From assembly GCF_963675165.1 (NCBI RefSeq), contig NC_087382.1, positions 3,325,963 through 3,389,962 on the forward strand: DNA of 64,000 bases, read 5' to 3'. How positions within the stretch are numbered: position 1 is the first letter of the stretch; every line of letters begins with the position of its first letter. The DNA is from Halichondria panicea (lineage: Eukaryota > Porifera > Demospongiae > Suberitida > Halichondriidae). Below the pieces are notes generated by a model. That model ran no database searches and had not been told where the DNA came from. It saw only the letters and a list, made by a program, of their open reading frames with translations. Made by a program: the position numbers and the translations under genes. Below, piece by piece: positions 23,108-55,958 of this stretch.

Positions 23108-23919
23108 ATGGAGTGAGTGATATTGCATGGTTACTGTATAATTTCACTATAAATATAATTAAACTTTTACTCTATAGACAACAAGCTGAGGATTGGAGGG
23201 AGCCTGTTAGATGGCAGGGCCGGTAAGTGCATGATGTATGATTACTGCCATTACATGCAGTATATATAATTAAAAATAGGCAACAAGCTGAGAAGTTGCT
23301 TAGTACTGTTAATAATGGTGATGTCAGGAAAGTGAAGTCCCTGTTGGCACGTGGGGCCGACCCCAACCATCCTGATTGTTTTCCGTTACACCGTGCTTGT
23401 TTATTTGGTTACCTGGAGATAGTGAAGGCACTTGTTGAGGCTGGGGCAGACCCTGAGAGGAAGAATAAGGAGGGCTTGTCTCCAGTTCATTATGCAGCCT
23501 CTAACGGTCATAAGGAATTGTTGGTTTACTTGATCAGGGATTGCAAGGCCAGCGCTAGTGAGTAATAATTAGTTCTAATTCATTCAGCTGCTAAATGACT
23601 GTGTTTAAATAACGATGTATATGGGCTAATCACATCGCTATAGTTAGCTGCAGAGTGGGTTATAGTTTAAAAAACGACAAGGTTTTTCGGTTTTGACCTC
23701 TGATGGATCGTTATGTACATAAAATGTTCATTGGGCGCTTTGAGTACCTGGCCTAGAGAGGGCCATTAAAAGATTGCTCTTACATATGAAAATATTAGTG
23801 ACACCCAACATTCATGTATAGATACCAGGGACCAGTTCAACAATACTCCACTCCACTATGCATGCTATGATGGTGACCTAGATATGGTGCAGTACTTGGT
23901 GGAAAAAAAAAACTGTTGA
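23108..23919 (+). pseudogene. Copy A: truncated ankyrin-only member of the Roc-death family
   Basis: Exons 23108-23112 (ATGGA), 23178-23222, 23280-23557 and 23822-23919 read in frame for 141 residues. They encode a helical start, two or three ankyrin repeats (DPNHPDCFPLHRACLFGY, SPVHYAASNGHKELLVYLI) and half of another (NNTPLHYACYDGDLDMVQYL). In the intact copies the last exon continues GTGGAGGAGGCCCACTGTG; here it has become a run of ten A followed by TGA, and a long T run follows. No Roc, Ig or death exon comes after; instead, duplicated alsin exons begin about 24000. It is most likely a dead remnant, though a small ankyrin protein could still be made. Confidence 0.75.
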
Positions 23920-24209
23920 CCTTTTTTTTTATTAACATTTTCTTTTAAACTGCCCCCCCCTTTTCAAAATTCCTGGATCCGCCCCTGAAAAGTGTGTGTT
24001 TAGAGATAATTTCTGACAGGTTAAATTGACCAAGCCAACTACGGCCTTGTGTTTGGTAGCTACTCTGGAGTGTCCGTTTCCCTAAGACGTGCATTTGTAC
24101 ATTTTGAGAGCGCTAATAACGCTTAAATATCAATCTGTAACGGACAATACTGAAAGTGTTTAAATATCCGCTGGTAGAGATAAATTTGTGACTTTATAAC
24201 TTGGTGTAG

Positions 24210-25787: not shown

Positions 25788-25944
25788 TTAAGTGTCCCTC
25801 TTGTACGAGTATACAGCTGCAGGAGGGCGTACTGAGCACAGTCAGTGGAGGTCCAATATCCTGTGTGGGCGGTGAGCGAGTTGATGTAACTATTCTCAGC
25901 AAAACTCTCCTTCAGCATAAAATCCAGTCGCTCACGAAGCCTCT
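25788..25944 (-). pseudogene. Copy of the DDHD gene's last exon, frameshifted
   Basis: It matches the DDHD last exon at 56329-56483, including the acceptor. Two extra bases (gagtatacagc against gagtacagc) shift the frame near the end. It lies downstream of copy A, as the real exon lies downstream of copy D. Confidence 0.85.
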
Positions 25945-28093: not shown

Positions 28094-31000
28094 ATGGAGT
28101 GAGTGATGATTAGTTACTGTTACAATAATGTCACTATATGTCAACTGTTACTCTATATATAGACAACAGGCTGAGGATTTGAGGGAGTCTGTTAGAATGC
28201 AGTCGGGGTAAGTGATGATTACTGCCATTTATACAGTGAAACGACTATTGATCAAATAGGAAGTTGTATAATGCTGCAAAAGATGGTGATGTCAGCGAAG
28301 TGAAGTCCCTGCTGGCACGTGGGGTCGACCCCAACCACCCCAAGTGCTATCCATTACACATTGCTTCTTGCAATGGTCACCTGAAGATAGTGAAGGCACT
28401 TGTTGAGGCTGGAGCAGACACTGAGAGAAGAGATGCTGGGGGCAGGTCTCCAGTTCATTGGGCAGCCTTTTGGGGTCATAAGGAGGTGTTGGTTTACTTG
28501 ATCAGGGATTGCAAGTCCTACTCTAGTAAGTTAATTAGCACTAGCCACTGCTACGTGACTCGACTGCATGTGACTGTGCATGTCTACATGCATAATAGAA
28601 ATCAATATGCATGTGTGTATGTTATACCAGGAATGCGAATCTAAATTATGTAATCAGTATAATTATACTATCATATCACAGTGGATATGCAATCATGGTC
28701 AGACTCACTATAATTATACCAGTAAGAGGCAAGGTTTGGGTTTCAACCTCTACTGTGTTACCAAGGGCGTAAGTTGTGGTCACAAATAAGCCTTATAGGG
28801 TATGGAGTGGGTGGTTGTGGGTGTGTTTTTTTTAGATTTTCACAAAAAGAAACCTGCTTGCATCCATGAAGCATGTAATTAAGTTGGCTTGTCCTTAATT
28901 TAGTGGATAGCCTCAACACAACAAGGTAGTAGTTTTAAATTTGTGTCAAATAAAAGCAAGCAAAATCGAATCAGTATTCTGCACGTTGGCCTAGAACAGG
29001 CGGCTTTGACTCAAGGCACTATAAACCTCAAATAAACGCTGAGAGTTTACACTTCAATGCTCCAGTTGTTTTTGGGTAGAGTTAACCACATACATCAACA
29101 AGTGGAAGAAAAGGACCGATGCTATATATTACCAGAGCTTCTGCTATTGCCAGAAAGTGAGTTTCTAAGCCTAAGATGTTAATAAGAAACTGCTACATCT
29201 ACTTCAGGGAACTCTGGTGATCTAATTTGGATCATTCGCAAAGGTTTTTCCCTTGAAAAGTATTGCCAGCAATACGGTTTTTGGTTATGCATTGTTAAGT
29301 ATAGGATAGACTACACATAAGAGTAAAATATGCATCTATGTAACCTCCGCGGTTGCGGTTAACCCGAGGCACAAACCCGACGGAATCTAACCGTAACCAA
29401 GGTGGTTACTAAGACGCATATTCTACGAGTGGGTGTGGTCTATCTTCATTGCTGATTACGCCCACTTCCTGTCACACGTGACTAGGGAAAATCCCATACT
29501 CAGCCAGGGGAAGGCGCATAATAGACTTGCGTAGAGCTTCCTTTGGCAGTTGATGCATCAGAACAACAGGTACAATCATTGAATCAAATTACAATAGCTA
29601 CAAAACTGATTAATAGCTAGCTGGTAGCTGTAGTAAAGCTTAAACTGAAAGGAGGGATTCGTGGCACCCTGGGATCTCGAGTCCCCCTGGATCCGCCACT
29701 GGGTCACCATGCAAGGTCTAGTGCAGTAGCTACTTGGTGGAGGCCCAGGATTTATTTTAGTGGAATGACATCTTACTAGTACATAGAACTGCTCGTGGAC
29801 TTCTTACAGACAGTAAACAATTCTCATGAATTATTCATGTTTAGCCCTCGTGTTAAAAAGTAAGCCTCGATTAAACCGCAGAGATACATGCATGGTACTT
29901 CGAGGGTACTTCCATTTCCAATCCCTCTCTACTCTATCTATGGTTAATGTGATTAACTCAACCACAACAATTATAAAATCTATCTGAAGCTACTGTAAAT
30001 GTGATTAGAAATGGATACCCTCCGGCCTCTCACAAACTCACATTCTATTAAGGTGTGTGGTCAACAAAAGAGGGCATAGCCAAACATTTTGCGGCGCTCG
30101 TAAATCTTCCCCCCCCCCCCAAGCGTTTTATCCTTGATAAAACCCTGAGTCCCACTGTGACATCAGTCCCCGTATCATACAACATTATGTTTCAGATGTA
30201 CGGAACAATGACAACGATACTCCACTCCACACTGCTTGCTTTCGTGGTCACCAAGATGTGGTGCAGTACTTGGTGGAGGAGGCTCACTGTGACATCAGTA
30301 AGTGCCAGTGTAGCTACATTGAAAGTCGACACTAATCTTAATATAATTATGCCCATTCTTGACAATTGGTACAGATGCACCTGGGAAGTATGGCAAGTCA
30401 CCCCTTGACATTGCTGAAGAGAATGGTTACAAGGACTACAAAACTAGGAGTCGAGCAGTTTCACTCGAACAAAAACGTAAGCACCCTAAATCCTATATAA
30501 TGGTTTTAATTAAGGTAGGACAGCAAAGAAACCTGGAGATAGCTAGTCTTGACCATAGATTAAAGAGGGAAAGGGATTGGAAACGGAAGTTACCTCGAAT
30601 TATATCTGCGTTACGCCGGGGTGTAATCGAGGCTTGAGTAAAATCTAAGTAGATAGTACCTTGCTGTCTGCAGTAGATTCTATACTACATTAACTAAAAC
30701 TTGCTCTTTCAACTGACACATATAATTATGGGACACAGTACACCAATGAGTTGCACAGTCTTAAGCCCCGTTTACACCAGGCCTTTAATCCAGGTTGGAA
30801 TCCTAACCGCGTTCGTGTAAAAGGCCCTTATCCGGGTTCCAATCCGGATTAGCCAACCCACCTCTGGAGGTGGTGCAGAAGCGGTTTAGCTGTGAGTAAA
30901 CAAAGAGCTAATTCTGAGGTGTTGTTCGGTGGGTGTTTCTAGAGTAAACCTGTAGCTTCCTATCAGCCAATGTTTCCGCAAACAAAATTAGTGGTAATTT

Positions 31001-34000
31001 TACTATGCCCACTACTCAGAAAAATCTGACCCGAATTAGTTGTCGTGTAAACGGGGCTTAATTAAGCTATTATAATTAAACATTTTACACATAAAGATCT
31101 ATATAATAGCAGGAGTACATGAATATTCATGTACTCCTGATAATAGCGTGACAAAACAACGTTTTGTACCTCTAGCTATCTTCACAAAAGTCAAAAATGT
31201 ATTTTTTCTTTTCCAACTGATGCTCTATTAGCTAGGGGGCATGAGAATGAAGCTTTAGGGCTGGGGGATCTGAATATCTTTCAGTGATCATAATTCATGA
31301 AACATTGTTTCCCGCGTGTTGCCGTAACATGGATTAACATCAAAGGCTCTCTGGTGCCATGCTGCAAATTCAATGTAAAATATCGCGTTATTTACTTCCG
31401 TTTCCAATCCTTCTCCTTCTTTAATCTATATAAACAAACTAGAGCACTAAAGTGCTAACTCTCGGCTGTTAATGTGAATACATTATAAAAATTAGGGAAG
31501 TACAACAACCTAGAAACTGGTAAAGGATCACTTTAGCTGCAAATATGTAGATCTACCTCGAATAAAGGTCACGTGTAGAGCTAGGCCAAGCTTTTTAGCT
31601 TTTGCTCGCTTTTATATGAGCTTTAACATCGATCTGCCACTAATAACTTGTTGTGTGAAGGCTATCCATGCTGTAAATGCAGTGCTATGGCATCCAGGTA
31701 AGCAAACTCACAAAATATATACAAACAAACAAACCTATACCCGTGGCCGCCCATTTGTGTCTCGGGTAATAAGAACAATTTTATGCACAGGAAAATATGG
31801 TGTTTTGAGTGAACCAGTTGTTCCACTCACACAAGACGAGGCTGATGCTCTGCAGAAGCTTCTCGAGGGAGCACAAGTCACCATTGGTTATCCCATTGTT
31901 GCTGGCACCACCACTCTGAAGGAAGTTCAGCAGCTGCTTACTCAGAGAGGACTGGTGGATATGGCCGCCAACCTCAGGACAGAACTCTATCAGAGTAAGC
32001 ACCCTAAATTAATGGAATAATTATAATTACAGTTTTCGAAGTTCTCACAGTTCAGCAAAAAAACCTGGAGATACTTGATAGTCTTATAAAGTCGACAAAT
32101 TCCATCACTCTTTGTTACCTAAAGCTGTTTCTTGTTGGGCCACCGTTTGTTGGCAAGACGACCACACTCAATCGATTGCTGAAATATTTCAAGAACATCC
32201 ATTTAGAACCTAACAAGGCAAAACTTAGGAGTACTCTTCTTGCTAACTGTTTGCAGGTATTTGCTTTAGTGAGCAACGATGGAACCGAATGGTTGTCTTC
32301 TAAAGATCTGAATGAAGAAGTTGCATTGTTGTTTAGATATTTCTGTGGCAGTGATCTTGAATCTGTAGGAAAAAGTGATCTTGATTTTGTAGGAAAGAGT
32401 GATTCTGAATCTGTAGAAAGTATTGATACTGAATCTGTAGAAAGTATTGATTCTGCAGCTGAAAACTTGAATTCTGAAATCATATACGAATCCACTACAC
32501 CACATACTAGAATTACCAAAGAAATTGTTGAGACAAGAGAAGTAGGAGATACCAAAGACGAACGGCTAGCTCGAGTACGAGACTGTATATCACGATTACA
32601 AAATGTGATCAAAGATAAAGATCAGTCTAAAGAACTGCTTAAACACATAGAGGGTAGCACACTGCTGAACATTAACGATATAGGAGGTCAACCTGCGTTC
32701 TTAGAGATGCTACCAGCCCTGAGCAATGGTCCGGCCATGTATCTAGTATTTGCTGACTTGAGCAAAGAGCTCAATAAGCCGTACAAAATTCCTTTCAGTC
32801 GAGATGACACAACTATCACTCCTTACGACGCCATGCATTCCGTTGAATCCACTGTTTCTCAGATCCTCTCTTCAATTGCTAGCATTCATCGCATCTCTCA
32901 AGAACCAGTTCCGTTTAAACTCGACAGATCAACTGCTTTTGGTCAGGAATTTGAGAAGCTCCAGGAAGTGCGTCCAATGGCAACACTAATAGGCACACAC
33001 AAAGACAAGTTAGAGGAACCGGTAGACCAGAAAATTTCGGAATTTGATTCAGCTCTTACGAAAGTTACTTCTAATTATAAGACAATCATTGCTAACCCTT
33101 CACCAAACCGCACAATTTTTGCAGTTGATAACTTTTCAGGAACAGATACAGAAGATATAGCACCAATCCGAGGTTTTTTGAGTGACATCTTCGAGAAACA
33201 ATTTAAAGATTCTTCTATTCCCATTCAACCAAATTGGCTCTGGTTTAGTCTGATACTGCGACGAGAATACTGCATTGCTCCGATGGATGATTGTGTTATC
33301 ATTGCTAGAGATCTTGGCATCGAAGAAGATGAGCTACAGCTTTGCCTTTGGTATCTTCACCATTGCACTGGAACCATAATGTATTATCCCAATATACCCG
33401 GGAAATACTTCAAAGGACATGTGATCTGCACTCCTCAAGTTGTGTTTGATAGCATTAGTGAATTTATTGTGACTTCTCTGCGCATTCTCCATGGTGATGG
33501 GGTGGTTATCGAATCAGAGCGAGTTGAACTGATTAAGAAGGGACAATTTTCGATCAAATCCATTGAAAAATACTGCAATTGTCCTCAAGTTAAGGAAAAG
33601 CTGAAAGAGAGTAAGCTTCTCCCAGCAAAGCAACTTGTAAAACTCCTTGAATATGTTCACCTTCTATCACCAATAGTCCATACGCAGTCAGACAAGGAAG
33701 AAATTACCTACTTAATGCCGGCTGTTTTGGAGTGTGCTTCACAAGAGGAGCTGGCGAACCCACCTCCACCAGACACCAACAACCCAGAACCACTCCACAT
33801 CACATTCAGCTTTGGTTACGTACCAACAGGAGTCTTCTGTGGGCTCATCACTCGACTAGTTTCCCAAGGCCCTCATGGAATACTCGGATTGACGTGGAAG
33901 TTGGTGGAAGATGGCGTCAAGAGAAACTGCGTTGCTTTCCATGTAGATGGTGTTCACAAGGTGACTCTGCTCTCGCACGAAAAGAGCTATGAAATTCGAG

Positions 34001-35292
34001 TTTCTCGTGAGGATCCAGAATCTTCTCTCCACGACCTTTGCGCTCATGCAATCTCGGTCGTTCTGTATTTCCTCAAAATCTTATATGAGAATTTGGTTCC
34101 ATTAATCGCATTCCAGTGTCCCTGTTCCAATCACAAAGCCGAACGAGACGTCACTAATTTATGTACTATTTCCGATGGTTCAAAAGTTCGATTTCTTTGT
34201 AAAGATTCTATGAAGCTCGTAAAATTAAAACCGGAGCAAAGGATCTGGCTTGGAAAGGTGAGTATCCATTGTACATATTATTATTTTACTTTTCCTACAG
34301 ACCAAGAAGGTTGGTGAGGAAGCTGAACTAGAGGTGCTAAAGTTTGCTGAGGATGGTTTCTCCTTCCACTGGACCAAAGAGGGCTCCAGACGTCAGATCA
34401 AGACAACTGACGATCGGCCCAACACTCTGAGTTTCCCGACTGTGAAAGAGGAGGACTTCGGTCACTACCAGTGTGAGGTGAAGGATGCAGCTGCTGGGAA
34501 AGTGCTCCTCACTCTCTACACAGCTCTCTTCAAAGAAGAGACAAGTCAGTTAGCAATGACGTATGCCGCACTTACGTTCCATCTTTATTTTTCTGCTTTA
34601 GAAGAATTCTCTGCTGAAAGGATTGAAGAGCCAAAAAGCAATGACACTAAATCTATTGTAAAGACACCATCATCAGGTTTGATTGTTTCTACGAACTATA
34701 TATGTATATAACACTGTTGTATAAATAATTATACTGAGCTATGTATATATTATGTAAGCATGGTTATATACATTGTTTGTTAACTTCCCCTCTACAGGAC
34801 CACCTGCTAATCGAGTCGCTCTCCAAGAACTAATGAGGCGATACAAACTGACTGACGAGCAACTCAACCGTGAAATAGTGGACTCCGATACTCCCGTAAT
34901 GGCCTTAAATTTTGATAATGTGGAAATGTATTCAACTGCAATGGGGCTAGCTATTGCTGAACAAGCTGATGTGAAGAAGGTGTACCATTGCGAAGGAACT
35001 CAAGCAGCCATGATGAAGTGTTTGAAAATCTGGAAAGAACGTGATCCTTTTCAAGCAAGTTACAGAGCTCTACTGGATATCGCACTGAGATTGGAGAAAG
35101 GAGAAACAGCTGATAAAATCTGTCAGCAATTGACCCAACGTAAGTACATGTATATGAGTGCCCCTCCCCCTTTACCACCCTCCTCTAGAAAGTACCTGAG
35201 TATAATTACAACTATACACAACAATTTAACTGAAATCACACCAGAGAAGTACAAAATGCACACCATCCTTTACAGATCGTACACTGGACTGA
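28094..35292 (+). CDS. Copy B: ankyrin-Roc-COR-Ig-death signalling protein
   Basis: Eleven exons (28094-28098, 28163-28207, 28260-28525, 30196-30297, 30375-30476, 31791-31994, 32033-34257, 34301-34544, 34602-34676, 34798-35139, 35276-35292) give 1208 residues. Order: ankyrin repeats (about 20-170), a helical linker (about 180-240), a Roc GTPase with P-loop GPPFVGKTT near 275, DIGGQ near 457 and THKD near 562, a COR region (about 620-850, PNWLWFSLILRREYCI), a single Ig-like domain (about 985-1062, ending EDFGHYQCEVKDA), and a death domain (about 1110-1200, MMKCLKIWKERDP, SYRALLDIALRLEKG). No signal peptide or membrane segment is seen, so it should be cytosolic. Roc-COR proteins are GTP-controlled dimers and death domains recruit partners, so a sensor or adaptor role is inferred. 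Confidence 0.88.
30556..31428. mobile_element. Inverted-repeat-flanked insertion in a copy B intron
   Basis: Left end tagattaaagagggaaaggg is mirrored by the right end near 31390-31428, with about 35 bases of imperfect complementarity around ggattggaaacggaagt. It has no ORF of note. A second foldback lies inside at 30761-31061. Just upstream (about 30477-30555) the intron resembles the short intron before the Roc exon and the first 40 bases of that exon. Confidence 0.65.
30761..31061. mobile_element. Foldback element with ttaagccccgtttacac ends
   Basis: ttaagccccgtttacac at 30761 is the reverse complement of gtgtaaacggggctta ending at 31060. It is about 300 bases long, has no coding potential and is nested in the larger insertion. 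Confidence 0.75.
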
Positions 35293-35861: not shown

Positions 35862-35903
35862 TATATTAAATATTAGCTTTATGTTATAGATAGTATGGGC
35901 ATG

Positions 35904-39725: not shown

Positions 39726-42700
39726 ATGGAGTGAGTGATCATTGCTGCCACAATAATGTCACTATTGAACTGTTTAATACTCTATATAGACAACAGGCTG
39801 AGGATTGGTGGGGTAGTTCGAGGGAGGCTGTTAGATCGCAGTCCAGGTAAGTGATGCTTACTGACATTACAGTAAAACGACTATTATATATGCTGTTTTA
39901 CTCTAATTAAATAGGAAGTTGTATAGTGCTGCTTATAATAGTGATGTCAGCAAAGTGAAGTCTCTACTGTCACAAGGGGTCGACCCCAACCACCCCGAGT
40001 GCTTTCCACTACACATCGCTTGTTCATTTGGTCACCTGGAGATAGTGAAGGCACTTGTTGAGGCTGGAGCAGACACTGAGAAATGGGATGATGACGGCAG
40101 GTGTCCAGTTCATTGTGCAGCCTTGTTTGATCAAAAGAAGGTGTTGGTTTACTTGATCAGGGATTGCAAGTGCAGCGCTGGTAAGTCATTAGTTTATTCA
40201 CTATAGCTACGGCTATATACATGACTATGTCTACATAATACAAATCAACTGTGTGTACATTATATACCAGGGAATGAAACATTATATTATCGATCATCAC
40301 ATCTCACTAAAATTGGTTAGCTGCACAGAGGATTATAGTTTATACAAGGGACATGATCTGTTTTGACTTCTGTATTAATTTTGATGATAGATTATTATGT
40401 ATATACAAATGTTCATTCTGCGCATTGGGTACCTAGCTTATATAGAAATAGTTGTACCATGGATATCAAGGGTGTATTGGATTTGTACTACCAGGGCAGT
40501 TGTATGTATTCCCTGCACAGGTAGCTTGTACTATGAACACGTATATTGCAATTAGAAGCTGTTATCCAACCCATTTTTACAACTGAATAGTTACTGTAGT
40601 AAACACTTTTTGATCCCTGCCGTGCATGCACTGTGCACATTTTGTGTGCATGTGCTTGCACTTGACAAACCACATACAACTTCACACCCAGTTCCAATAT
40701 GGTCCGGTAGTTTTAGTGAATCTGATTGGATACTAAAGAATTGATCTTCACAATGTGATCCTATAGTGTGTCACAGTAGTGATCTATAAAAGAGTAGTTT
40801 CCTTTAAGGGTGGAGGGTGGGCTTTAGGCTGACCACAGCCAATGTACCCTAGGGTACATGAATGTACACCCTAGTAGCAGAGGAGGTATGACAGGCGCGG
40901 TGCAGCTCAGGCAATTAACACAATAATTATCCGCCCACGTCGTATGTTTTTGTTGAGAGTAATCAGAGGCTAATTGCTAGAGTTGCACCGCACCTGTCGG
41001 ACCTCCTCTGCCCTAGTAGGGTACATGGGATTTGTGCCCTGGAGTATCCTGAGAGTTTCAATGGATATTCCTTAGTGTCAGAGCACATCACGGTGCAAGG
41101 CCATTAAGAGGTTAATTCCTTATAATACTATCTAGATGAACACAGTAAGTAAGAGCAATGTTAATACTTAGTGACACCATGAAACATTAATGTGTAGATA
41201 CCACAGACAAGAACAACAAAACTCCACTCCACACTGCATGCTCTGGTGGTCACCTAGATGTGGTGCAGTACTTGGTGGAGGAGGCCCACTGTGACATCAG
41301 TGAGTGTATCATATTTCTTTCCTCGTAATAGACATTATGACTGTAACTTCCAGATGTATGGAACAAGTACAATACTCCACTTCACTATGCATGCTCTGGT
41401 GGTAACCAAGGTGTGGTGCAGTACTTGGTGGAGAAGGCCCACTGTGACATCAGTGAGTGTCTTTAAACCATTGTATAGCTGCATTGACTCATTGAAAGAT
41501 CTCTGACACTATAATCTTACACCCATGCACTCTTGACTATATCGATACAGATGCAACTACTAAGCATGGCAGGACACCACTTAACATAGCTAAAGAGAGT
41601 CAGTACAAGGAAATCGTTGACTACCTCAAGACTCGACAAGAATCATCTCCTAGACAACTAGGCAAGTTATGCACAAACACTTACAGTATCCCATGGCAAC
41701 CTAAACGTGTGTATTTCATCGTAGTACAAGATTCATAATTTCATTTCTTGTCATCAGGAAAAGATGGTGTGACAAGTGTTGGGAGTCAACCAGCTGTTCC
41801 ACTCACACAAGACGAGGCTGATGCTCTGCAGAAGCTTCTCAAGAAAGCATGGGTCAACATTGGTCATCCCATTGTTGCTGGAACCACCACTCTGGAGGAA
41901 GTTCAGCAGCTGCTTACTCAGAGAGGACTGGAGGATATGGCCACCAACCTCAGGACTAAAATCAGTCAAAGTAAGCACCCTAAGTCAATGGATGTTTTTT
42001 GTTGATATAATTATTACAGTTCTTGCAGTTCAGCGAAGAAACCTGGAGATACTTGATAGTCTTATGAAGTCGACAAATTCCATCACTCTTTGTTACCTAA
42101 AGCTCTTTCTTGTTGGGCCACCGTTTGTTGGCAAGACGACCACACTCAATCGGCTGCTGAAACATTTCAAAAACATTCGTTTAGAACCTGATAAGGCAAA
42201 GCTTAGGAGTACTCTTCTTGCTAACTGTTTGCAGGTATTTGCTTTAGTGAGCACCGATGGAACCGAATGGTTGTCTTCTAAGGATCTGAAAGAAGAAGTT
42301 GCACTGTTGTTCAGGTATTTCTGTGCCAGTGATTTTGAATCTGTACAAAGTGGTGATTATGAAAACATCAGATACAAATCCACTACACCACCTAGTCCTC
42401 TTTCCAAAGAAATTGTTGAGATAAGAGAAGTGGGAGATGACACCACAGATGAACGACTAGCTCGAGTACGAGACTGTATATCACGATTACAAAATGTGAT
42501 TAAGGATCAAGATCAGTCTAAAGAACTGCTTAAACGCATAGAGGATAGCACACTGCTGAACATTAACGATATAGGAGGTCAACCTGCATTCCTAGAGATG
42601 CTACCAGCCCTGAGCAATGGTCCGGCCATGTATCTAGTATTTGCTGACTTGAGCAAAGAGCTCAATAAGCCGTACAAAATTCTTTTCAGTCGAGATGACA

Positions 42701-45700
42701 CAACCATCACTCCTTACGACGCCATGCATTCTGTTGAATCCACTGTTTCTCAGATCCTATCCTCAATTGCCAGTATTCATCGCATCTCTCAAGAACCAGC
42801 TCCGTTTAAACTTGACAGATCAACTGCTTTCGGTCAACAATTTGAGAGGCTCCAGGAAGTGCGTCCAATGGCAACACTAATAGGCACACACAAAGACAAG
42901 TTAGAGGAACCGGTGGACCAGAAAATTTCTGAATTTGATTCAGCTCTCACAAAAGTTACTTCTAATTATAAGAAAATCATTGCTAACCCTTCACCAAACC
43001 ACACAATTTTTGCAGTTGATAACTTTTTAGGAACAGATGAGATGGATATAGCACCAATCCGAGGTTTTTTAAGTGACATTTTCAAGAAACAATTTCAAGA
43101 TTCTTCTATTCCTATTCAACCAAATTGGCTCTGGTTTAGTTTGATACTGAGACGAGAATACTGCATTGCTCCGATGGATGATTGTGTTATCATTGCTAAA
43201 GATCTTGGCATCAAAGAAGATGAGCTGGAGCTTTGCCTTTGGTATCTTCACTATTGCACTGGAACCATAATGTATTATCCCAATATACCCGGGAAATACT
43301 TCAAAGGACATGTGATCTGCACTCCTCAAGTTGTGTTTGATAGCATTAGTGAATTTATTGTGGCTTCTCTGCGCACTATCCATGGTGATGGGGCGGTTAT
43401 TGAATCAGAACGAGTTGAACTGATTAAAAAGGGACAATTTTTGATCAAATCCATTGAAAAATACTGCAAATGTCCTCAAGTGAAAGAAAAGCTGGAAGAG
43501 AGAAAGCTTATCCCAGCAAAGCAACTTGTGAAGCTCCTCGAATACGTTCACCTTCTATCACCAATAGTTCATACACAATCAGACAAGGAAGAAATTACTT
43601 ACTTAATGCCAGCTGTTTTAGAGTGTGCTTCACAAGAGGAGCTGGCGAACCCACATCCACCAGACACCAACAACCCAGAACCACTCCACATCACATTCAG
43701 CTTTGGTTACGTACCAACAGGAGTCTTTTGTGGGCTCATCACTCGACTAGTTTCCCAAGGCCACTATGGAATACTCGGATTGACGTGGGAGTTGGTGGAA
43801 GATGGTGTCAAGAGAAACTGCGTCTCTTTTCTGATTGCAAAATCAAATAAGATAACGTTAATATCTCATGAAAGAAGTTACGAAATACGAGTTACTCTAA
43901 ATCACGCTCATCTCTCCCTGCACGACCTTTGCACCTATGTTCTCTCAGTAGTTCTCTACACACTCAAGAGCATGTACGAGCAGCTAGTCCCACAAGTTGC
44001 GTTCCAGTGCCCATGTCCTGGTCACAGCTCAAGCACAGATAGAAATTCCTTGTGTATCCTGACAGAAGATGTATGGATTCAGTTTCTGTGTGGCAGTAAT
44101 CCCATTACCTTGAGGAAGGAGCAGACAGTTTGGCTTGGAAAGGTGTGTGTACAGTTAGCGTACGTACAATTATGTGCATGTGTTCTTACTTGTTTTAATT
44201 TTGTACTGTTTGCAGCTGTGTATCAATCTTAGTCACAATAATTTTTCCCTTCATTTTAACAGACCAAGATGGTTGGTGAACAGGCTAAACTAGAGGTACT
44301 AAAGTTTGCTGATGATGGTTTCTCCTTCCACTGGACCAAAGAGGGCTCCAAACGTCAGATCAAGACTAGTGATTATCAGCCAAACACTGTGAGCTTCCTG
44401 AGTGTGAGAGAGGAGGACTTTGGTCACTACCAGTGTGAGGTGAAGGATGCAGCTGCTGGAAAAGTGCTCCTCACTCTCTACACAGCTCTCTACAAAGAGG
44501 AGACAAGTGAGTTTGCACTGTACAATTGTGTGTGCCATAATGGCAATCTTCCACTTAATTTTTTTCTGCTTCAGGTATATTCTCTACTGAAGAGTCAAGA
44601 CGCAATAGTACCGAGTCCAATAAATCTATTGTGAAGACCTCATCATCAGGTTTGTACAAACTGAAACACTGTGTTCGCTGATCACTCCTATAGATGAGGG
44701 GTCCCTGTCATCAGAAAGGCTCCAATACTCAACAGATCCAGTCCAGAGAGTAGGAACTCCAATATCATCATCAGCAGGTGGTGACAGTCAAGTCCGTAAT
44801 AGAAGAGGTAAAGAATAACCCCACTGCTAAATCATATGTATGTTTATGATGTTGAGATGCCATGTTAAATTTGAAGTAAAAACTGTTGTGGTCGGTATGG
44901 TGTGAAATTGGTCATTTGTCTAGACCATTGTACGTATGTTTCTCATGTGATTTTCTCCTCTTAATAATTATGAAAAGACACTGATTGTCTACATTGTGAG
45001 TTCGTTTCATGGTTGTTCCTACAGAATTGTTGCTGTAACAATGGCCTTGGGGTCTAATCTCTAGAGCTTTATTATTATTATAGTTTGAAGTCCTTCATTT
45101 CTGTGGCAGAATATAAAAATAACATAATTATATAGGTCACATTGGAGAGTCTGTTGTGGAGGTCACTAACAAATCTAAAAAGTTTAGTAATTTTGGAATT
45201 AAGATTTCTGTCCTGGAAAATTCGCTACCTGAAGGTATCGATACGTGTGTCCTACACATATCCTTTGAGTTATCCACTGACTTTGAGATTCCTGCTAACT
45301 CTGAACTAGTCAGTTCAATTTATCATGTGAAATGTGAGCCCAAAGTACAGTTTAAGAAGCCTCTCATCTTGGAAATACAACACTGTGTGAGCTTAAACTC
45401 TGGCCATGAACAAAGGCTTGTCTTTGCTCGAGCAACCGATGAGAGCAAAAAGTTTGAGATCCTGGACGGTGGTCACTTTCCTATTGGTGAACGCTATGGA
45501 TCCATCCAACTCACTCGTTTTAGTTGGTTTAGTACTTTGTGTGAAGCATTAGGTTTTACAACTGAGAGGATGTACAGTGCATTGCTGTTCAGAAAGAACT
45601 TGCCCCATCACAAAATTGACATGAAATGTGTGGTATGCCAGAATCTAGCAACTCATGTAAAGGTAGGTTTCTATTTTTTCCACAGTTAGAATTTGATAGT

Positions 45701-47880
45701 TAAGGAAGCCTATACAATATACGCCTACCAGTGTTACACTGATATTTATGAGCTTTCATTATAATAATTACAGGTAATTAGAGAGGAGTTAGAAAAAGAT
45801 AGATACACAAAAGAAATGGATCTAGATCAAATTCAATTTGAAAATGCAGTAGAGATGGAGCTGCATTCAGAGAATCCCGAGCTTTGGACTGTTACTAGGG
45901 TAACACCCACTGTGAGTTATAATTTATAGTATAGACATGCAGTAATATTAAAACAAAAGCATAGTACACTCTTGGAGGATATTATGCAACAAAACAATGG
46001 ACAGGTGTGACTATTACATATGCTTGCTTAATTGTAGCTGTCCAGGCATCAGATTGATGGATACGCAACAAGAGTATTGGATTCTGATAGACGACCTGCA
46101 GTTATTCCAGCCATCCAATATAGATTTAACCTGAAGGAAAATTTTGTTTCTGAATCAGTAAACTTTCTGCTGACGAAAACCGATTTAGATGAAGAGAGCC
46201 AACACTTGACCCTACATATTTGCTGTAAGCAATTCTACTACTGGTATTACATAGAAAATAAAAATTATTTTCTTGTACATGTATACCATGCACTGTCCTG
46301 ATACTTGCGTGCACAAACCTAACAACTTCTTTTCCTCAGTACCCCACACTCTGGGAAGGAGTGACTCAACGACACAGACACAGAGAGGTCAGTTCATGTG
46401 TATATAATTATAGACCATGCAATGGGTAGCTATTTGTGTACGTTCTTTAAGTGCACCTTGTTGACCCATAAAAACCTGGAAGTGAATACTAGTATGACTT
46501 GTATAATATCAGTGCAGAGTTATAAAGAGAAATATATTTGGGTTCACATCATATTAGTCTGGGGGCCGGGGCCAGACCTTTTCTCGGAGGATGGGAGGGC
46601 TTGATTTTGCCCCTGAGATATTAGATCTGGCACCCAGACTAGCATGCACTAGATATCACAGTGTAATTACACTTTATACACACAACAGACTCAAACGCTT
46701 TCTTGTACTGAGTCCAGAAAGAGTTGTTGTGGTATCCCTGTTAGGCTAGTTGCAGCCATATGTAATTGTTTGCTTTTGGGAAAATCTGTAGCTATAATTA
46801 TACCACACTTATGTCACCACTAATTGGTCAACAGCTGTAGGATACATAGAAAAATTACATACAGCCCCAGTCATGCACCCGTTTTCAAGCCATGCTTGAC
46901 AGTACTAAGATTCAAAGTGACGGCAAAAACATGGAAGCTGCTCTCCAACAAGATGGCTAAGTCTCCATGGGTCCATGGGCGTGGTTAGATACATTTATCT
47001 AAGAAGAGCTTGCAACTCCAGTGAGGGCGTCGAATGGTCAACGCTTGGACCAAGGAAGCTCTTGAGCATCTGTAAGAGTCGAGGTGTTGCTCAACTAGTT
47101 CTTTGACGGCTGTAAAATCCGGCATAGTCTTGTTCTTTTTGCAGTCTGCATCTGCATCGTAGATCGAATTGTTGCTAGGGGAGGTTCCTTTTGTAGAGCT
47201 GCGGTCACGCGTAGTATAAGTCAGCTATGCCACACCTTCTCGGAGAATATACACCCCATATATCCTCCTCTTAGATATACTTATATCTACATCCTAATCT
47301 AGAAAGTTGCCTTCTTGAAGGTATACGGTATTGTTTGGTGGTCTATTTGGTATACTTAAACCTTTTATAGTTAGAGATAAAACAATAGTTTGCTCATGTT
47401 GACAGTGGAGCTGGTCCCACACTGACCTTAAGCAATTATTCGGTATAGTTCATATCATTGCCCATCAATCTATATAATTATGCTCCCACTAATTTACAGC
47501 ATGCATACAAAACTCTAACTGCAGTATAATTATACGTACCAATATATACCTTGCTTGCATCTGTTCTTTTTTGTCTGCATGCATTGCTGTATTCATGGTC
47601 GGTACTGGTTTCTGTTTGCTATCTCTAAATAGGACCTCTCGCTACTCAAGTCACTCTCCAAGAACTAATGAGGTGGTACCAACTGACTGACGAGCAACTC
47701 AGCCGTGAAATAGTGGACTCCCATACTCCCGTAATGGCCTTAAATTTTGATGATGTGGAACTTTATTCAACTGCAATGGGGCTACTTCCTGCTGAACAAG
47801 CCGATGTGAACAGATCATGTAGAACTCAAGCAGCAATGATGATGTGCTTGCAAATCTGGAAACAACATGATCCTTCATGA
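39726..47880 (+). CDS. Copy C: ankyrin-Roc-COR-Ig-ZU5-like protein with a truncated death domain
   Basis: Sixteen exons (39726-39730, 39790-39846, 39915-40180, 41198-41299, 41354-41452, 41551-41661, 41758-41970, 42020-44142, 44263-44506, 44575-44649, 44694-44807, 45136-45662, 45774-45911, 46038-46224, 46340-46387, 47633-47880) give 1518 residues. It shares the ankyrin, Roc (P-loop GPPFVGKTT near 316, DIGGQ, THKD), COR and Ig regions with copy B. The 527-base exon encodes a ZU5-like domain (about 1140-1240, FGIKISVLENSLPEG, then PKVQFKKPLILEIQH). The next two exons look like a UPA-type module, the order seen in UNC5, ankyrin and PIDD proteins. The death exon ends at TGA (47878-47880) where copy D reads CGA, so the death domain lacks its second half. 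The ankyrin-linker intron at 41662 uses a GC donor. Confidence 0.82.
40877..41011. repeat. Inverted repeat in a copy C intron
   Basis: gcagaggaggtatgacaggc at 40877 is mirrored by cctgtcggacctcctctgc ending near 41011, with one or two mismatches; the loop is about 65 bases. Confidence 0.7.
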
Positions 47881-48532
47881 GCAACTTACAGAGCTCTATA
47901 TACTGGATATCGTACTAACATTGGGGAAAGGAGACACAGCTCATCAAATTTGTCGGCAATTGATCCAACGTAAGTACATGTCGTGAGTGTTAGTACTCCT
48001 CCCCCTTTTCCACCCTCTTCTATAGAAAGCAACTGACTATAACATTTAACTGAAATCACGCCAGAGAAGCATTCTACAAAAATTCCTGCCTGCATGCATA
48101 TACCGTATTTACTTGATTAAACGCCCGAGCGTATATTTCCTAGAAACATCTGCATGTAGAGGGGCGTTTAAACGAGATGGGCGCTTATTCGAAAAGGGCA
48201 TTTATTGTTTTGTCTACTTCAAACTCTTGCTCATCAGCAGTTATTATGCTCTTTTTGGCTGCTGCCACAGCTCTCAGCTTAAATCTTAAGTCGTAGGAGT
48301 GGTGTTTCTCCTTCATCATAAACAATCTATGCTGCCATTGTTTCAGCTGGTTCCATGTGCTAATTCAGCTCCGCCCACAGTGCCACGCCCATACATGGGC
48401 GATTATTAAGAGGGGCGTTTATTGACAAAGACAGCTTTTACCATGGGCGTTTAATCAAGTAAATTTGGTATACATAATTATGCCGCCATAATTATTTCTA
48501 CCGTACTGGTTACAGATCGTACACTGGACTGA
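47881..48532 (+). pseudogene. Untranslated remainder of the copy C death domain
   Basis: After the stop, 47881-47970 still matches the rest of the death exon, with a four-base insertion (ctctatatactgg against ctctactgg), and keeps the donor cgtaagtac. The final exon (48516-48532, atcgtacactggactga) is intact with its acceptor. A foldback (48103-48468) sits in the intron. Confidence 0.8.
48103..48468. mobile_element. Foldback element with ccgtatttacttgattaaac ends
   Basis: The left end is mirrored by gtttaatcaagtaaatttgg ending at 48468; the interior has a second inverted block around gggcgttta. TA flanks both sides. It has no coding potential. Confidence 0.75.
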
Positions 48533-49129
48533 TGAACTGATTCACAGTATCAAAATGTTCAGAACACTCATTATAGCTCTATAGATTAACATTATTATGT
48601 AGACTAGTGTATGTTTTATTTTTGTTGACTAGAATAGACATCTATTTTTTGTACTGGATTTCCACTGTATTGTCATTAATTTTTTGTACAGAACATTCGA
48701 TTGTTATGACGTTTATTTTAATTAGTTGACTGTAAAATAGATTTCCAGGAATAACGAGCTGGACATTATCAATTATAGCCTGCAGCTTTATTCAATCAAC
48801 CTCAAGTCTGAAATAATGATCCTTAATTAAAGGTGACAACACAGCAGTAGCTAATGTTATACTGCATTCCATGCATCTTATGTGTTCTGATGAATTAATC
48901 AACAAACAGAATTATTACAACATACATTTGTACGTGTCACACACATACAATTTTATAATGAAGCTATATATACAAACTCGTACACATACAAACATTTTTC
49001 TGGAATAAATTTGAAGTAATAGTTATAAGTTACTTGGCATTAGGTCAAACAATAACTAATGAGATAATGATGCAGTGTAACATGTGGTATAGCTATCTTA
49101 TATACATAGTAATAAAAGTTTACAGCGTA

Positions 49130-50448: not shown

Positions 50449-53400
50449 ATGGAGTGAGTGATGTGATTACTATACCACATTATTATTAAACTGTTACTCT
50501 ATAGACAACACCGTGACGCTGAGCACTTGAAGGAGGATGTTAAATTGCAATCCCAGTAAGTGATGATTATTTCTAATTATGGCTATGTAAACTGTTACTG
50601 TAAGGAAATTGGATAAAGCTGCAAGAAATGGTAATGTCAGCGAAGTGAAGTCCTTGCTGGCACGTGGGGTCAACCCCAACCACCCCGGATGCTCTCCATT
50701 ACACAGTGCTTGTAAGATTGGTCACATGGAGATGGTTAAGGCACTTGTTGAGGCTGGAGCAGACACTGAGTTGGCCATGGACAGGTATCCAGTTCATTGG
50801 GCAGCCTTGAGGGGTCATAAGGAGGTGTTGGTTTACTTGATCAGGGATTGCAAGTGCAACGCTAGTGAGTCATTATATAGTTCATTCACTAGCCACTGCT
50901 ACATGAATATTGTGTCTACATAACATTATTGTTGTACGTTTTACCATGCAGGAATAGGAATCTACATTATTTTTATAGTTATTGATAATTACATCTCCGG
51001 CACTAAAATTAGTTAGCTGCAGGGTGCATGGATTGTATATATACGGGCCAAGGCAGTTTGACCCCTGTATATTTCATGATGGGTTGATATGTACACAAGC
51101 TGTTCATTTGGCGTGCCTTGAGCACGTGGCTTAGGGATGGCCATTTAGAAAGGTTCTTCTTACTCTTATAGATGGACACAGTAAATATAAAGAGCAATGT
51201 TAGTGACACCAACATTCATGTGTAGATACCAGGGACAATGACGATGATACTCTACTCCACATGGCATGCCTTGGTGGTCACCTAGATGTGGTGCAGTACT
51301 TGGTGGAGGAGGCCCACTGTGACATCAGTGAGTATATCATATCTGTCTCCGTATATCATACAATAACTATGATAAACATTATATGACTGTATAACTTTCA
51401 GATGTAAAAAACAAAAACAATTCTTCTCCACTCCACAAAGCATGCATTCGTGGTCACCAAGGTGTGGTACAGTACTTGGTGGGGAAGACCAACTGTGACA
51501 TCAGTGAGTTTGTCATTTTCTGTCCTGGTATTACCGTATAGCGGGCTATTTTCGAGACACAAAATTTTTGCGGATAAAGTATTTTGAGGATTTTATTTTC
51601 GAAGGGAGCGGTTTAAATGACCACACCCCTACAGCAAACCAATTTTTCAAGGCACTAAATTTTCGTGTTTCTGGGTCATCCTCGAAAACCTCGAAAATAA
51701 CCAACTATATACGATATATACAAATGTAACTATGACTGTAACTTTTCAGATGTACGGAACAATAAGAACGATACTCCACTCCACTATGCATGCTCTGGTG
51801 GTCACCAAAATATGGTGCAATACTTGGTGGAGGAGGCCCACTGTGACATCAGTGAGTCATATCTGTCCGTGTATCATGTAAATGTAATTAACATTATGCA
51901 TGGTTGTAACTTTCAGATGTAAGGAACAATGAAAACGATACTCCACTCCACAATGCATGCCTTGGTGGTCATCAAGGAGTGGTGCAGTACTTGGTGGAGA
52001 AGGCCAACTGTGACATCAGTGAGTGTATTTAAAGCAGTGTAACTAAGCCTACATTGATTTGAAAGCCCTTAATAATTCTGCATAATGCAAGGAGCCCTGT
52101 GCCAAATATATACCACACTTGGGGTTTGTATCATATCAACTTAACTACTATAAACTCCACATTCCTCATAAACCTCCCAGGCCCTTGCCTTGAGAACACA
52201 TACTACACAGCCTAGACACTAGTTGGCTAGACGGGGACGAGTTTCAAACGTGCATTGCGTACTAGTTATGAATACCATAACATTAGCCGCGCCTCTAACT
52301 GAAATGCATTACATAAAGCAGTCTGCAATCTAATTGGTGCTTGCGGCAGAATGAATGCTTGATGGTTTGAAACCCGTCCTCCTGTTGGGAGGCGGGCTAC
52401 GCCTATCTACTAGTTGGCAAGGGCAAAACAGATGGGTGGGGCTTGCTAAGCACCAGGAGAAAAGGTGAGGCTCACTGCTTGGACATGGACAAGTTAGTGC
52501 GTATAGAGCTATAGAAGCTTAGCCTTGTTCCCAGGCCTTACTTTTTCTTGCTGTTGTCACTGTTCATCCATAAACATAAGAAAGACATAGTGAGGCAGCA
52601 AAGAAAGAAATGGGCGTACAGTTAAGAAAAAGTAAGGCCTGGTTTGGGAAATCGCGTGATCCACAAGGATTTTTATGAACGTGGGCGATATGTAGCCCAC
52701 AATCGTGACGTAAGGTATTCTCCCACGCATTCGGAGTAAGACTGTACTGTACTGCACTGAGACAACCACCAAGCTGTGCTGCAAGTCAGATCAGAGAACC
52801 AGCGTGGCCAGCTCTGGTGGCAGTAGCTACCTGCTATATGATAATGATGACTAAGCTATTCTACTATAGCATGTAGAAAGACACAAGAAAGGTAATAGTG
52901 ATAGAATCTAAACACACAATCTAGACTAGTAGATCATCTAGCTAAGCCTAAGGTATAGCTAGCTATAGTGCCCCTTCTACCACCCTTCTACCCTCACACG
53001 ACTTCCAACTTTACGTCTATTTCTTTCTTTATTCCTTCAATTAATACCGTATTTTATCTTATTGAACGAATAATACAGTATTTTATCTTATTGAACGATT
53101 GTGATAAAGAACAGTGTGTAGAGGCTAATAGAAGCTTAGCACTGGCTACAAGCTATACCACAAGCTTTTCAATAGTTTTAAACTATGCACTCCCATTGAT
53201 TACAGATGCAACTAATAAGTGTGACGAGACACCCCTTGGCATAGCTGAACTGAGAGATTACAAGTATATTGTTGACTACCTCAAGACTAGACAAGAATCA
53301 TTTCCTGGACAACCAGGCAAGTTATGAGAACATTCCACCAGACAGTATCCCATGGCAACTTAAACGTGTGCATTTCAACTTAGCAAACACTTCATAAGCT

Positions 53401-55958
53401 TTAGACATGTTATATTCATTTCTGGTATAAGATTACATTTATTATTATATTACTTACATTCAGGAAGTTTACTGCCATAAATTCTGATGTAGTGGACACT
53501 GAATATATAGCTTTAACTATTCTACAAACACTGTTGTTAACTGATCACTCCTATAGATGAGGGGTCCCTGTCATCAGAAAGGCTCCAATACTCAGCAGAT
53601 CCAGTCCAGAGATCTACAATATCATCATCAGCAGGTGGAGACAGCCAGGTCCATACTCAAAGAGGTAAAGTAATTAACACTGCTGGATCAGATGCTTAAA
53701 TAATATTGTGTACTATACAGGGAGTACATGCAGGAAGCGTAAAAACACCGAATTTATTGTGAAAACACCATCACCAGGTTTGTTTGCTTGTAACTGTTAC
53801 ACACTGTTTTTAACTGAAAATGCACTGTCTCCTATAGAGGAGTCAAGGAAAAGGCGCAAGTGCACAGCTTCAGCTAGTGACAAAGTCATTACTACTCAAA
53901 GAGGTAAATTACTGCTGAATCAAATAACTAGATGATTTGTATGTATAATTGTTGACGCCACTAATCAATGCTCATTTCCCCTCTACAGTACCACCTGCTA
54001 ATCGAGTCGCTCTCCAAGAACTAATGAGGCGATACAATCTGACTGATGAGCAAGTCAACAGTGAAATAGTGGATTCTGATATTCCTGAAATGGCCTTATG
54101 TTTTGATGATGTGGACATGTATTCAACTGCAATGGGACTAGCTATTGCTGAACAAGCCGATGTGAAAGAATCACGTGGAAATCAAGCAGCAATGATGAAG
54201 TGCTTGAAAATCTGGAAGGGACATAATCCTTCACGAGCAACTTACAGAGCTCTACTGGGTATCGCACTAAGATTGGGGAAAGGAAACACAGCTGATCAAG
54301 TCTGTCAGCAATTGACCCAACGTAAGTACATGTGTATCAGTGCCCCCCCCCATCTAGAAGGCATAATTACGATAATTGGACTGAATTCACACGATACAAA
54401 AGTGCCTCCTGTGTATGTACAGTGCATCCAGCTTAGAGAGTAGATTACCACAAATGTGTGAGTGGCTGTACTTAAACGTTGATACCTTTTGATTGGAACC
54501 TTTTTAAGAAATGGTGCTGATACCATTGTGTAGGTGAATGAATAAGCTACAACATATCCCAAAAATGTCCATGAAAACATGAGGTGGTGGGTTTGGGGGG
54601 ATTAATAAGAACAACAGTAAATTGTTGTAGTGGGTAATCGGTTAGAGTAATAAAACACTAACCTTAAACAGCTAAGGTCTCAGACTTCATAAGATAATTG
54701 TTGAATGGTTTAGGTGTCCTGGCTATCCTTCATGAGTCTTATATATGTTCACAGTGCCTATAATTCATGATTTACTGGTTTTCAGGTGTACTTTTGGTTA
54801 GAGTAATAACTTCTGAAAAATTAATAGCTTAGCTTTCAAATTTCTCTAATAAGTTTACAGATTAAATTGGCTACATTTTGATACCAAGAACATCCTCTAT
54901 GCTTATTCCATTGCTGAGATAACACTGAAAAACTACAAATTTTACTACTTTCTACTGTTTTGATGATATCAACAGCTGCAAACCAATGACGCTCTAATCA
55001 ACCACATAAGTGGGCACACAATAACTGTACGGCATACAATAACTGTACGCCCACTCTTTATTAAGCTTGTGGTTGATTAAAGCGTCATTGGTTTGTGGTT
55101 AGCAGATGTCAAGAGGTTATACCATAGCAAAGGTACTCGAGCAGCCATGTTGAAGTGTTTGAAAATTTGGAAACAACATAATTCTTCACGAGCAACTTAC
55201 CGAGCTCTACTGGATATCTAGCCTCGATTCCAGGCCGCTAAGAGAGGGCCTGGTATCGACTGTTTGCGCATGCGCCACCTATTACCCAGAAAGTGGGTAA
55301 TTCGGATACCATTGTATTTTGCTCAGTAAAACAATGACGTCACAACGAACGGAAGTGGATTGAAGAAAGTGGATAGAAGTGTGATTGTAGCCCGTGTGAT
55401 AGCATTCTAATAGCTACCCTTAGCCTACTATGTTAACAAAGGACTCACAGCCTGCAACAGTGTGGACCTCTGAACGGAGGGGAAGGCTGACAATAGCCTA
55501 CATGTATATGGATAGGCCACGCCCATCTGACACTAACCTTGGTGAAAGTCGACTCTATCAGAAAGAAATTGCTGCTGTAACCAATACAGCTCTGTATCTA
55601 GCTAGCTAGCTATATAGCTCTGTGTCTGACTTTATGAAGTTTGTCTGTATAATTTATGTTATTCAGGATATAATTCGGGTAAAATTCAGTTTAATGGGAA
55701 ACATTACGGGAATATTATCCAATAATTTTGCGCATGCGCAAGCAGTCAGTAGCAGGCCTAATTGTTTAGGCCTTGAGAAGGAGGCTACTGGATATCGTAC
55801 TAAATTTGGGGAAATGAGAAACAGCTGATAAAATCTGTCAGCAATTGGCCCAATGTAAATACATGTGTATCAGTGCCCCTCCCCCTTTTAACAATAATGT
55901 GCCTCCATGTATGTACATACCATCTACTTTTTCTGTTACAGATCGTACACTGGACTGA
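50449..55958 (+). CDS. Copy D: ankyrin-death protein lacking Roc, COR and Ig exons
   Basis: Thirteen exons (50449-50453, 50505-50555, 50605-50864, 51226-51327, 51402-51503, 51750-51851, 51917-52018, 53206-53316, 53557-53664, 53721-53777, 53838-53903, 53989-54321, 55942-55958) give 471 residues. Residues 20-275 carry seven or more ankyrin repeats, more than copies B or C because the 102-base ankyrin exon occurs four times. A Ser-rich linker follows (SSERLQYSADPVQ, ESRKRRKC), then a complete death domain (MMKCLKIWKGHNP, TYRALLGIALRLGKG). The exon at 53557 joins directly to the last ankyrin exon: both junctions are phase 1, so deleting the Roc-COR-Ig exons kept the frame. The donor at 53317 is GC (ggcaagt), as in copy C. 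A basic RKRRK stretch could be a nuclear signal. Probably cytosolic. Confidence 0.82.
51534..51716. mobile_element. CCGTATAGCGGG foldback in a copy D intron
   Basis: Starts ccgtatagcgggctattttc; the right end (aaataaccaactatatacga) is degraded. It lies between two ankyrin exons. Confidence 0.6.
54979..55095. repeat. Inverted repeat in the last copy D intron
   Basis: caaaccaatgacgctctaat at 54979 is mirrored by taaagcgtcattggtttg ending at 55095. The loop contains two direct copies of acaataactgtacg. Confidence 0.8.
55100..55855 (+). pseudogene. Second, broken death-domain exon in the last copy D intron
   Basis: 55105-55218 and 55788-55855 match the second half of the death exon (MLKCLKIWKQHN, RATYRALLDI, then ETADKICQQL) and its donor region, now aatgtaaat instead of acgtaagt. 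A TAGCCTC element splits it. It looks closer to copy B or C than to copy D's own exon, so it came from another family member. Confidence 0.75.
55219..55787. mobile_element. TAGCCTC-ended element splitting the second death exon
   Basis: Starts TAGCCTCGATTCCAGGCC and ends GAAGGAGGCTA. The 9-base target ctggatatc is present at 55210-55218 and 55788-55796, exactly duplicated. The inner part has further inverted blocks (tgcgcatgcgc). Confidence 0.85.

Follow-up and report, generated by a model that had tools for sequence, protein, structure and literature searches.

A tandem array of predicted ankyrin-Roc-COR-death genes with a hypervariable ankyrin face in the sponge Halichondria panicea

What kind of protein is encoded when ankyrin repeats are joined, gene after gene, to predicted Roc-COR GTPase and death domains? 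This question is raised by a 64,000-nucleotide stretch of the sponge Halichondria panicea (the window; C6:3325963-3389962 of G000, an assembly of 131.5 Mb in 39 contigs), in which a first-pass annotation had recognised four copies, A to D, with different domain sets and had proposed a birth-and-death cluster of cytosolic sensors, possibly with an immune or cell-death role. Gene anatomy and the pattern of variation, taken together, make it reasonably probable that the window holds one end of a tandem array of genes for cytosolic recognition proteins of the ROCO type, in which variable ankyrin repeats would serve as sensor, a constrained Roc-COR domain as GTP switch and a death domain as output.

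That the four copies lie on one strand was borne out by self-comparison of the window and three-frame reading. Together they make up an end segment of a larger same-strand array and, as this extends beyond the window, they were rejected as the whole family; the limits first given to the cluster were far too narrow. The array continues for about 285 kb past the window and reaches about C6:3.667 Mb. Beyond the window, 13 more ankyrin starts were read and 16 were found by intron match; the array has about 20 tandem copies. The intron between the ankyrin exons ANK3 and ANK1 recurs 16 times from C6:3402362 to 3662500, 15 times at 98-100% identity and once at 82%. A search of the downstream stretch C6:3389963-3589962 with the window modules revealed 11 further copies (G03-G13), each starting with an ANK3 exon. 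In nine of these, all on the plus strand, the exons follow one another as ANK3, ANK1, ANKend, linker, Roc-COR, Ig, serine and death; in G08 and G13, the remaining two, the ordinary Roc start is truncated, a divergent Roc-COR (27% identity) comes after it and no Ig match was obtained. Partial copies are interspersed among them. None of the 15 Roc-COR matches longer than 300 residues contains a stop (eight shorter matches lie outside the examined set), and in three copies the Roc-COR match is split, so that some may be broken. In a genome-wide first look (649 death-exon candidates, 150 scored; 336 Roc-COR candidates, 60 scored), 26 of the 150 scored death exons and 18 Roc-COR loci, as counted from tables, fall within C6:3.35-3.67 Mb.

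In designed ankyrin libraries, positions 2, 3, 5, 13, 14 and 33 of the repeat are randomised, and these positions were taken as the a-priori binding set; repeat numbering was set on G04, one codon short near position 33, so that the placement of one or two codons may be wrong. Position 10 joined the set once the alignment had been viewed and is included in the counts of nonsynonymous to synonymous changes (N:S), in the held-out copies and in the haplotype and codon counts. Among 11 copies, the base difference was 0.323 at the a-priori codons and 0.303 at position 10, against 0.057 in the framework, 0.060 in the 80 bases 5' of ANK3 and 0.012 in the ANK3-ANK1 intron. The nonsynonymous difference amounted to 0.384 at the a-priori codons versus 0.078 in the framework (site permutation p 5e-5), and single-base codon differences gave an N:S of 573:58 at binding codons and 762:187 in the framework. 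The predicted binding faces were distinct in 11/11 copies. Two held-out copies yielded values of 0.355, 0.062 and 0.006 and of 0.350, 0.065 and 0.010 for binding codons, framework and intron, respectively, and with them 13/13 faces were distinct. Near-identical tandem copies are hard to assemble, and collapsed or mis-joined repeats, or faulty gene models, might produce false mosaics and false variation. Such errors would hit the intron equally, whereas the variation is found at particular codons next to an intron of 99% identity, with every copy distinct, and the 15 examined Roc-COR matches are free of stops; an artefact of this kind is considered very improbable.

Selection was compared by module among 14 copies of ANK3, 14 of ANK1, 13 of ANKend, 13 of the linker, 14 of Roc-COR (two divergent ones included), 14 of Ig, 16 of the serine exon and 17 of the death exon (the broken exon of C included). 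The median pairwise ratio of nonsynonymous to synonymous change (dN/dS; number of pairs with usable dS in brackets) was 1.41 for ANK3 (91), 1.70 for ANK1 (75), 1.30 for ANKend (76), 1.65 for the linker (50), 0.87 for the serine exon (115), 0.66 for the death exon (135), 0.47 for Ig (89) and 0.32 for Roc-COR (67). Codon models gave an omega of 1.71 for ANK3 (p against omega = 1: 0.0012), 2.81 for ANK1 (0.0028), 1.81 for ANKend (0.034), 2.52 for the linker (0.0098), 0.92 for the serine exon (0.76), 0.90 for the death exon (0.46), 0.71 for Ig (0.18) and 0.37 for Roc-COR (1e-65). With correction for eight tests, ANK3 (0.010) and ANK1 (0.022) are diversifying, and Roc-COR as a whole is constrained. 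The linker exon is near-identical in most array copies, yet has an omega of 2.5.

These values bear on an alternative in which the locus arose recently as an array of DAPK-like genes for signalling or scaffolding, in birth and death, with ankyrin differences that reflect relaxed constraint or partner switching and not non-self recognition. The C-terminal part of DAPK1 has the order ankyrin-Roc-COR-death, which the array shares as its core, and remnants and broken copies are present. A lineage-specific ROCO set is also described from a placozoan (PMC4104024). Relaxed constraint alone, however, cannot give a change at binding codons about 26-fold above that of the adjoining intron, repeated in the held-out copies, nor can it place this change at positions named beforehand; partner switching under selection is compatible with both. 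As a whole, this alternative seems unlikely. The sensor idea of the first-pass annotation gains from the hypervariable predicted ankyrin face beside a near-identical intron and from the constrained Roc-COR, while its part concerning immunity or cell death is something that we still infer.

The window genes themselves differ in how complete they are. The ankyrin exons are common to the window copies in both self-comparison and module search, and the shared last exon occurs three times in the window, in B, C and D but not in A as had been supposed. Copy A, described as ankyrin only, does lack any non-ankyrin module, but is a truncated remnant: a stop lies within its fourth exon, the shared last exon is absent and no later module of A was found in a window search between A and B, so that a functional ankyrin-only gene was rejected. 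B reads as ankyrin-Roc-COR-Ig-death and D as ankyrin-death, each in one clean frame as predicted. C follows the plan of B with the addition of a ZU5 exon and two further exons; its first 14 exons are clean, but its death exon holds an in-frame TGA and a 4-base insertion (by eye against B and D), for which reason C was rejected as a complete gene. From the third exon on, exons of B and D end in phase 1, the exception being the Roc-COR/Ig junction of B (phase 0).

All four copies have the 5' flank and the ATGGA first exon in common. A search of the genome DNA with the 191-base block of B gave four matches, all in the window, and nine downstream places use another first exon; in this DNA search the ATGGA exon occurred in A-D only, and it was discarded as a family marker. 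The other first exon, ATGGGACAGGAACAGTCTGCTGA (MGQEQSAE...), was seen at nine array places (e.g. L023 near 2059), eight times exactly and once with one mismatch; its product fits an N-myristoylation pattern. B, C and D start with MEQ, unlike these downstream copies.

Identities between copies are discordant from module to module. The Roc-COR of G09 is 93.9% identical to that of C and 72.7% to that of G11, whereas its death exon is 99.7% identical to that of G11 and 71% to that of C, and its Ig exon is identical to that of G11; G05 and G06 share 99.1% in Roc-COR and 81% in the death exon. Judged by this discordance, modules move between genes, that is, exon modules are exchanged within the array. 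With about 20 tandem copies, remnants, modules lost and gained and mosaics at the exon level, the description as a birth-and-death cluster holds well. After the ankyrin-end exon of B, at 30470-30560, a degenerate stretch was noted by eye that looks like the linker exon's end together with the Roc exon's start; it is perhaps the scar of a module rearrangement.

Profile searches upheld some of the predicted domains in single sequences. Ank scored far above the Pfam cut-off, making the ankyrin assignment certain, while Ig exceeded its cut-off of 21.8 bits in B (25.0) and not in C (19.3). ZU5 in C reached 26.7 bits (cut-off 21). Roc in B and C remained below cut-off (17-18 bits vs 27), as did COR-A (14.2 bits, cut-off 35.3), COR-B (15.9 bits) and, searched alone, Death (15.8 and 17.5 bits vs 22.6) in B; for C, neither COR-A nor COR-B was listed in the Pfam search. 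Pfam gave no Death match for D at E<=1, the whole D protein included, and the domain was therefore assigned by the 79% identity of its death exon to that of B. No Pfam family was obtained at E<=1 for the two exons after the ZU5 of C, and no Pfam match for the linker exon (B copy, ~70 residues). NACHT was not found among the Pfam matches of the Roc-COR exons; the P-loop of C gave a sub-threshold nSTAND3 match (14.6 vs 27.2 bits).

The Roc GTPase motifs (P-loop, DxGGQ and THxD-type) are present in B and C. The P-loop and DIGGQ residues are invariant in 11 aligned copies, across which the fourth motif reads G-T-x-x-D. Among 11 family members (10 of the 15 long Roc-COR stretches of the array and one copy on C8), Pfam Roc matched 10 at E<=0.01 and COR-A three, with a best E of 6.2e-7; at least two of these three are probably the divergent Roc-COR copies. 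A family profile aligned to two proteins above the COR-A cut-off with 99.9% probability over 440 columns, from DIGGQ on, and to LRRK-like proteins of the same genome at the P-loop only (probability 7%). For Death, 16 members were chosen, and 14 of them matched at E<=0.1, the best at 5.2e-5. With Roc motifs and a COR region after Roc in the same protein, the evidence at the family level points to ROCO membership; single window sequences fail the ROCO Pfam cut-offs.

Several observations weigh against an array of recognition proteins. In single sequences the evidence for Death and Roc is weak, with no Pfam match behind the death domain of D, and profile searches against PDB returned no Roc, COR or death match, the Roc-COR query matching only a P-loop GTPase; a search with the ZU5 sequence by itself was likewise empty. 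Structures predicted from window sequences only were too poor to support the assignments: the Roc-COR model had a mean predicted local distance difference test score (pLDDT) of 32.0, and the all-helical model of the death exon, with a low-confidence mean of 58.6, found no match at E<=0.001 in a fold search. Among the four window genes, A is a remnant and the death exon of C is broken. Of the diversifying signals, correction for eight tests leaves those of ANK3 and ANK1 alone below 0.05, and locally high N:S was obtained elsewhere, in Roc-COR alignment columns 121-180 (5.4), in Ig columns 61-80 (6.0) and in the death exon at its two ends (5.1 and 7.5). The contrast with the intron depends on the intron chosen, as the same 11 copies differ by 0.09 after ANK1, 0.11 before ANKend and >1 after the linker; homogenisation is therefore local. 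Ankyrin repeats also diversify in non-immune roles. Finally, the bootstrap ranges of dN/dS overlap between binding codons (1.02-2.18) and framework (0.69-1.57), so that the ratio alone is not decisive, and the synonymous difference (pS) is raised at binding codons as well (0.266 vs 0.076, permutation p 3e-4), with different codons in 58/543 same-residue pairs there and in 187/5979 in the framework.

This raised synonymous change means that pure selection is not the only reading, as it is expected either from variants kept for long or from mutation aimed at these codons. A mutational mechanism, be it hypermutation or exchange of cassettes from a donor pool, whose product is filtered by selection would also suit two findings: with position 10 the binding face comprises 21 codons, of which 15 differ at two or three bases, and some residue pairs of the binding face recur in several copies. 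The single-base N:S of 9.9 and the lack of a clear consensus-base bias fit selection with long-kept variants instead, and aimed mutation is regarded as distinctly unlikely. An adenine-targeting diversifier was rejected, since no such bias appeared (consensus bases at variable sites: A 21, G 19, T 18, C 2; at invariant sites: A 9, G 6, T 7, C 5).

If the genes do encode ROCO-type recognition proteins, the ankyrin repeats would form the variable sensor, the concave face of which is hypervariable and has its own version in each copy examined. Ligand binding might act on the Roc-COR GTPase, which would be the switch and probably also the dimeriser, and the C-terminal death domain would then bring in a signalling partner of the death-fold type, with the ZU5 module as intermediary in the layout of C. 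The array would evolve by tandem duplication, by loss and by swapping of exon modules, most of which share one splice phase at their ends, with diversifying selection on binding codons and partial homogenisation elsewhere. Such a family could work like NLRs without NACHT, as a germline repertoire, and a role in immunity or in self/non-self recognition is conceivable. In a bolder version, possible but doubtful, the germline would keep a library of such ankyrin 'paratopes', each mounted on a ROCO-death frame in a tandem gene with near-identical sequence around the binding face. Conversion between copies, and possibly aimed mutation, would renew this face and supply a repertoire for microbes or self/non-self independent of NACHT, leucine-rich repeat (LRR) and immunoglobulin-fold receptors. 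Were recognition proteins confirmed, an animal would have a recognition family built on ROCO, its ankyrin binding face varying in the manner of designed ankyrin libraries. The combination of a variable repeat with an NTPase switch and a death-fold output would then not be limited to NACHT/NB-ARC proteins, in parallel to brown algae and fungi, and the search for the molecular basis of immune or allogeneic recognition would have a definite starting point in a probably early-branching animal. As the binding positions are few and named, ligand and polymorphism tests would be direct.

The domain order had been thought to be without a described counterpart, which was overstated in view of DAPK1 and of placozoan, sea-anemone and brown-algal ROCO precedents. 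The DAPK1 order is found in B and in nine of the 11 further copies; the differences are gene models without kinase, the added Ig and ZU5, and a large array with a variable binding face. No kinase match was obtained at E<=0.1 in six open frames upstream of B, though a kinase exon may lie farther upstream, and the models of B and D begin with MEQ and pass straight into ankyrin repeats. Similarly, ZU5 is followed by a death domain in PIDD, UNC5 and ankyrin proteins, as in the plan of C and at a C5 locus (L043) where a ZU5 module adjoins a death exon; in C, however, ZU5 is joined to ankyrin-Roc-COR-Ig, and the two exons behind it belong to no matched Pfam family.

Published accounts are cited here for the sections that treat the genes concerned. 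DAPK1 has its Roc together with an N-terminal kinase, and at least 17 ROCO genes are present in a placozoan, CARD and death being among their partner domains (PMC4104024). Lineage-specific Roc/COR genes of sea anemones, which also encode TIR or death domains and for which an immune function was proposed, include a kinase-Roc-COR-death-TIR gene; NG1 has LRR and TIR, NG3 kinase, death and TIR, and an ankyrin sensor or hypervariable face is not described in those sections (PMC5094078). Besides DAPK1, the brown-algal LRR-ROCOs and the fungal ankyrin NLRs come nearest. The LRR-ROCOs are proposed immune receptors with a Roc-COR core, phase-matched repeat exons, module shuffling and diversifying selection on the repeats; they carry LRR instead of ankyrin repeats, LRR-ROC-COR is the only ROCO structure reported there, hence no death, Ig or ZU5, and they are not animal genes (PMC11378527). 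Fungal NLRs with ANK, TPR or WD repeats combine an NTPase with an effector and show positive selection on the repeats, where the ankyrin polymorphism lies on the concave side (PMC4986451), and the same excess of amino-acid change at predicted ligand-facing positions was found here. They use NACHT or NB-ARC and not Roc-COR, and as far as that account goes they vary among the repeats of one gene and between strains (PMC4986451), whereas the array varies between tandem genes of one genome and has a death domain. Sponge NLRs likewise form lineage-specific multigene families with an NTPase and a death domain, but are NACHT-LRR proteins with N-terminal CARD or DEATH, in an account whose relevant sections describe no Roc-COR family (PMC12909245). 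For TRADD-N proteins, too, a sponge family of large size is described, many members of which also contain ankyrin repeats (PMC8195603). Among the matches listed in the open-licence literature there was no hypervariable ankyrin-ROCO-death family in animals, and Roc-COR with Porifera gave no match there.

Relatives of the modules were found elsewhere in the genome. The copy on C8 keeps the same module order at 45-54% identity from linker to death, so that the architecture is old. Relatives of the ZU5 exon of C, among 60 ZU5 matches, comprise nine that are full-length (63-83%), of which one contains a stop, and a fragmented tenth, none of them in the array. In a NACHT search in which 102 of 265 candidates were scored, all 102 above cut-off, death-exon relatives lay 3' of NACHT exons on C13, on the same strand and at 2.9-4.0 kb, in 8/13 cases; NLR-like genes of this genome may therefore use the same output domain.

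Table 1. Features of the window, in window positions, and of the downstream array.
Feature	Position	Strand	Remarks
Copy A, truncated ankyrin-only remnant	23108..23916	+	exons 23108-23112, 23178-23222, 23280-23557, fourth from 23822 ending at stop
Copy B, ankyrin-linker-Roc-COR-Ig-death	28094..35292	+	11 exons, 1208 amino acids, GT-AG introns
B ankyrin exon	28260..28525	+	three repeats; Pfam and gene model
B single-ankyrin and ankyrin-end exons	30196..30476	+	30196-30297 and 30375-30476; gene model
B linker exon	31791..31994	+	gene model
B Roc-COR exon	32033..34257	+	GPPFVGKTT, DIGGQ and THKD motifs, then COR-A/COR-B region
B Ig exon	34301..34544	+	Pfam and gene model
B death exon	34798..35139	+	last exon 35276-35292; gene model, family profile matches
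Copy C	39726..48539	+	14 exons in frame, 1420 amino acids; candidate exon 46340-46387; broken death exon; last-exon sequence 48514-48539
C linker exon	41758-41970	+	
C Roc-COR exon	42020..44142	+	motifs, gene model
C ZU5 module	45136..46224	+	ZU5 exon 45136-45662, next exons 45774-45911 and 46038-46224
C death exon, broken	47632..47928	+	in-frame TGA near 47878
Copy D, ankyrin-death	50449..55958	+	13 exons, 471 amino acids, no Roc-COR or Ig, one GC donor
D single-ankyrin exons	51226..52018	+	four, 102 bases each, all ending in phase 1; gene model
D death exon	53989..54321	+	last exon 55942-55958; identity to B exon, gene model
Two degenerate death-exon fragments	55101..55888	+	in last intron of D; self-comparison, module search
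G03-G13, approximate starts on C6	3401962, 3415562, 3436262, 3448462, 3462862, 3475162, 3502062, 3516962, 3540762, 3559262, 3570062		in order
Divergent Roc-COR	L031 1455-3398, L041 3-1955		two array copies
Core-2/I-branching enzyme genes	6446-7492, 10351-11502	-	tandem pair
Bystin gene	11933-13264	-	
Tandem repeat array	20612-22360		units of ~270-330 bases

Outside the ankyrin family, the window holds a Bystin gene and two Core-2/I-branching enzyme genes, the latter with ~91% DNA identity over 1265 bases. The tandem repeat array lies shortly before copy A.

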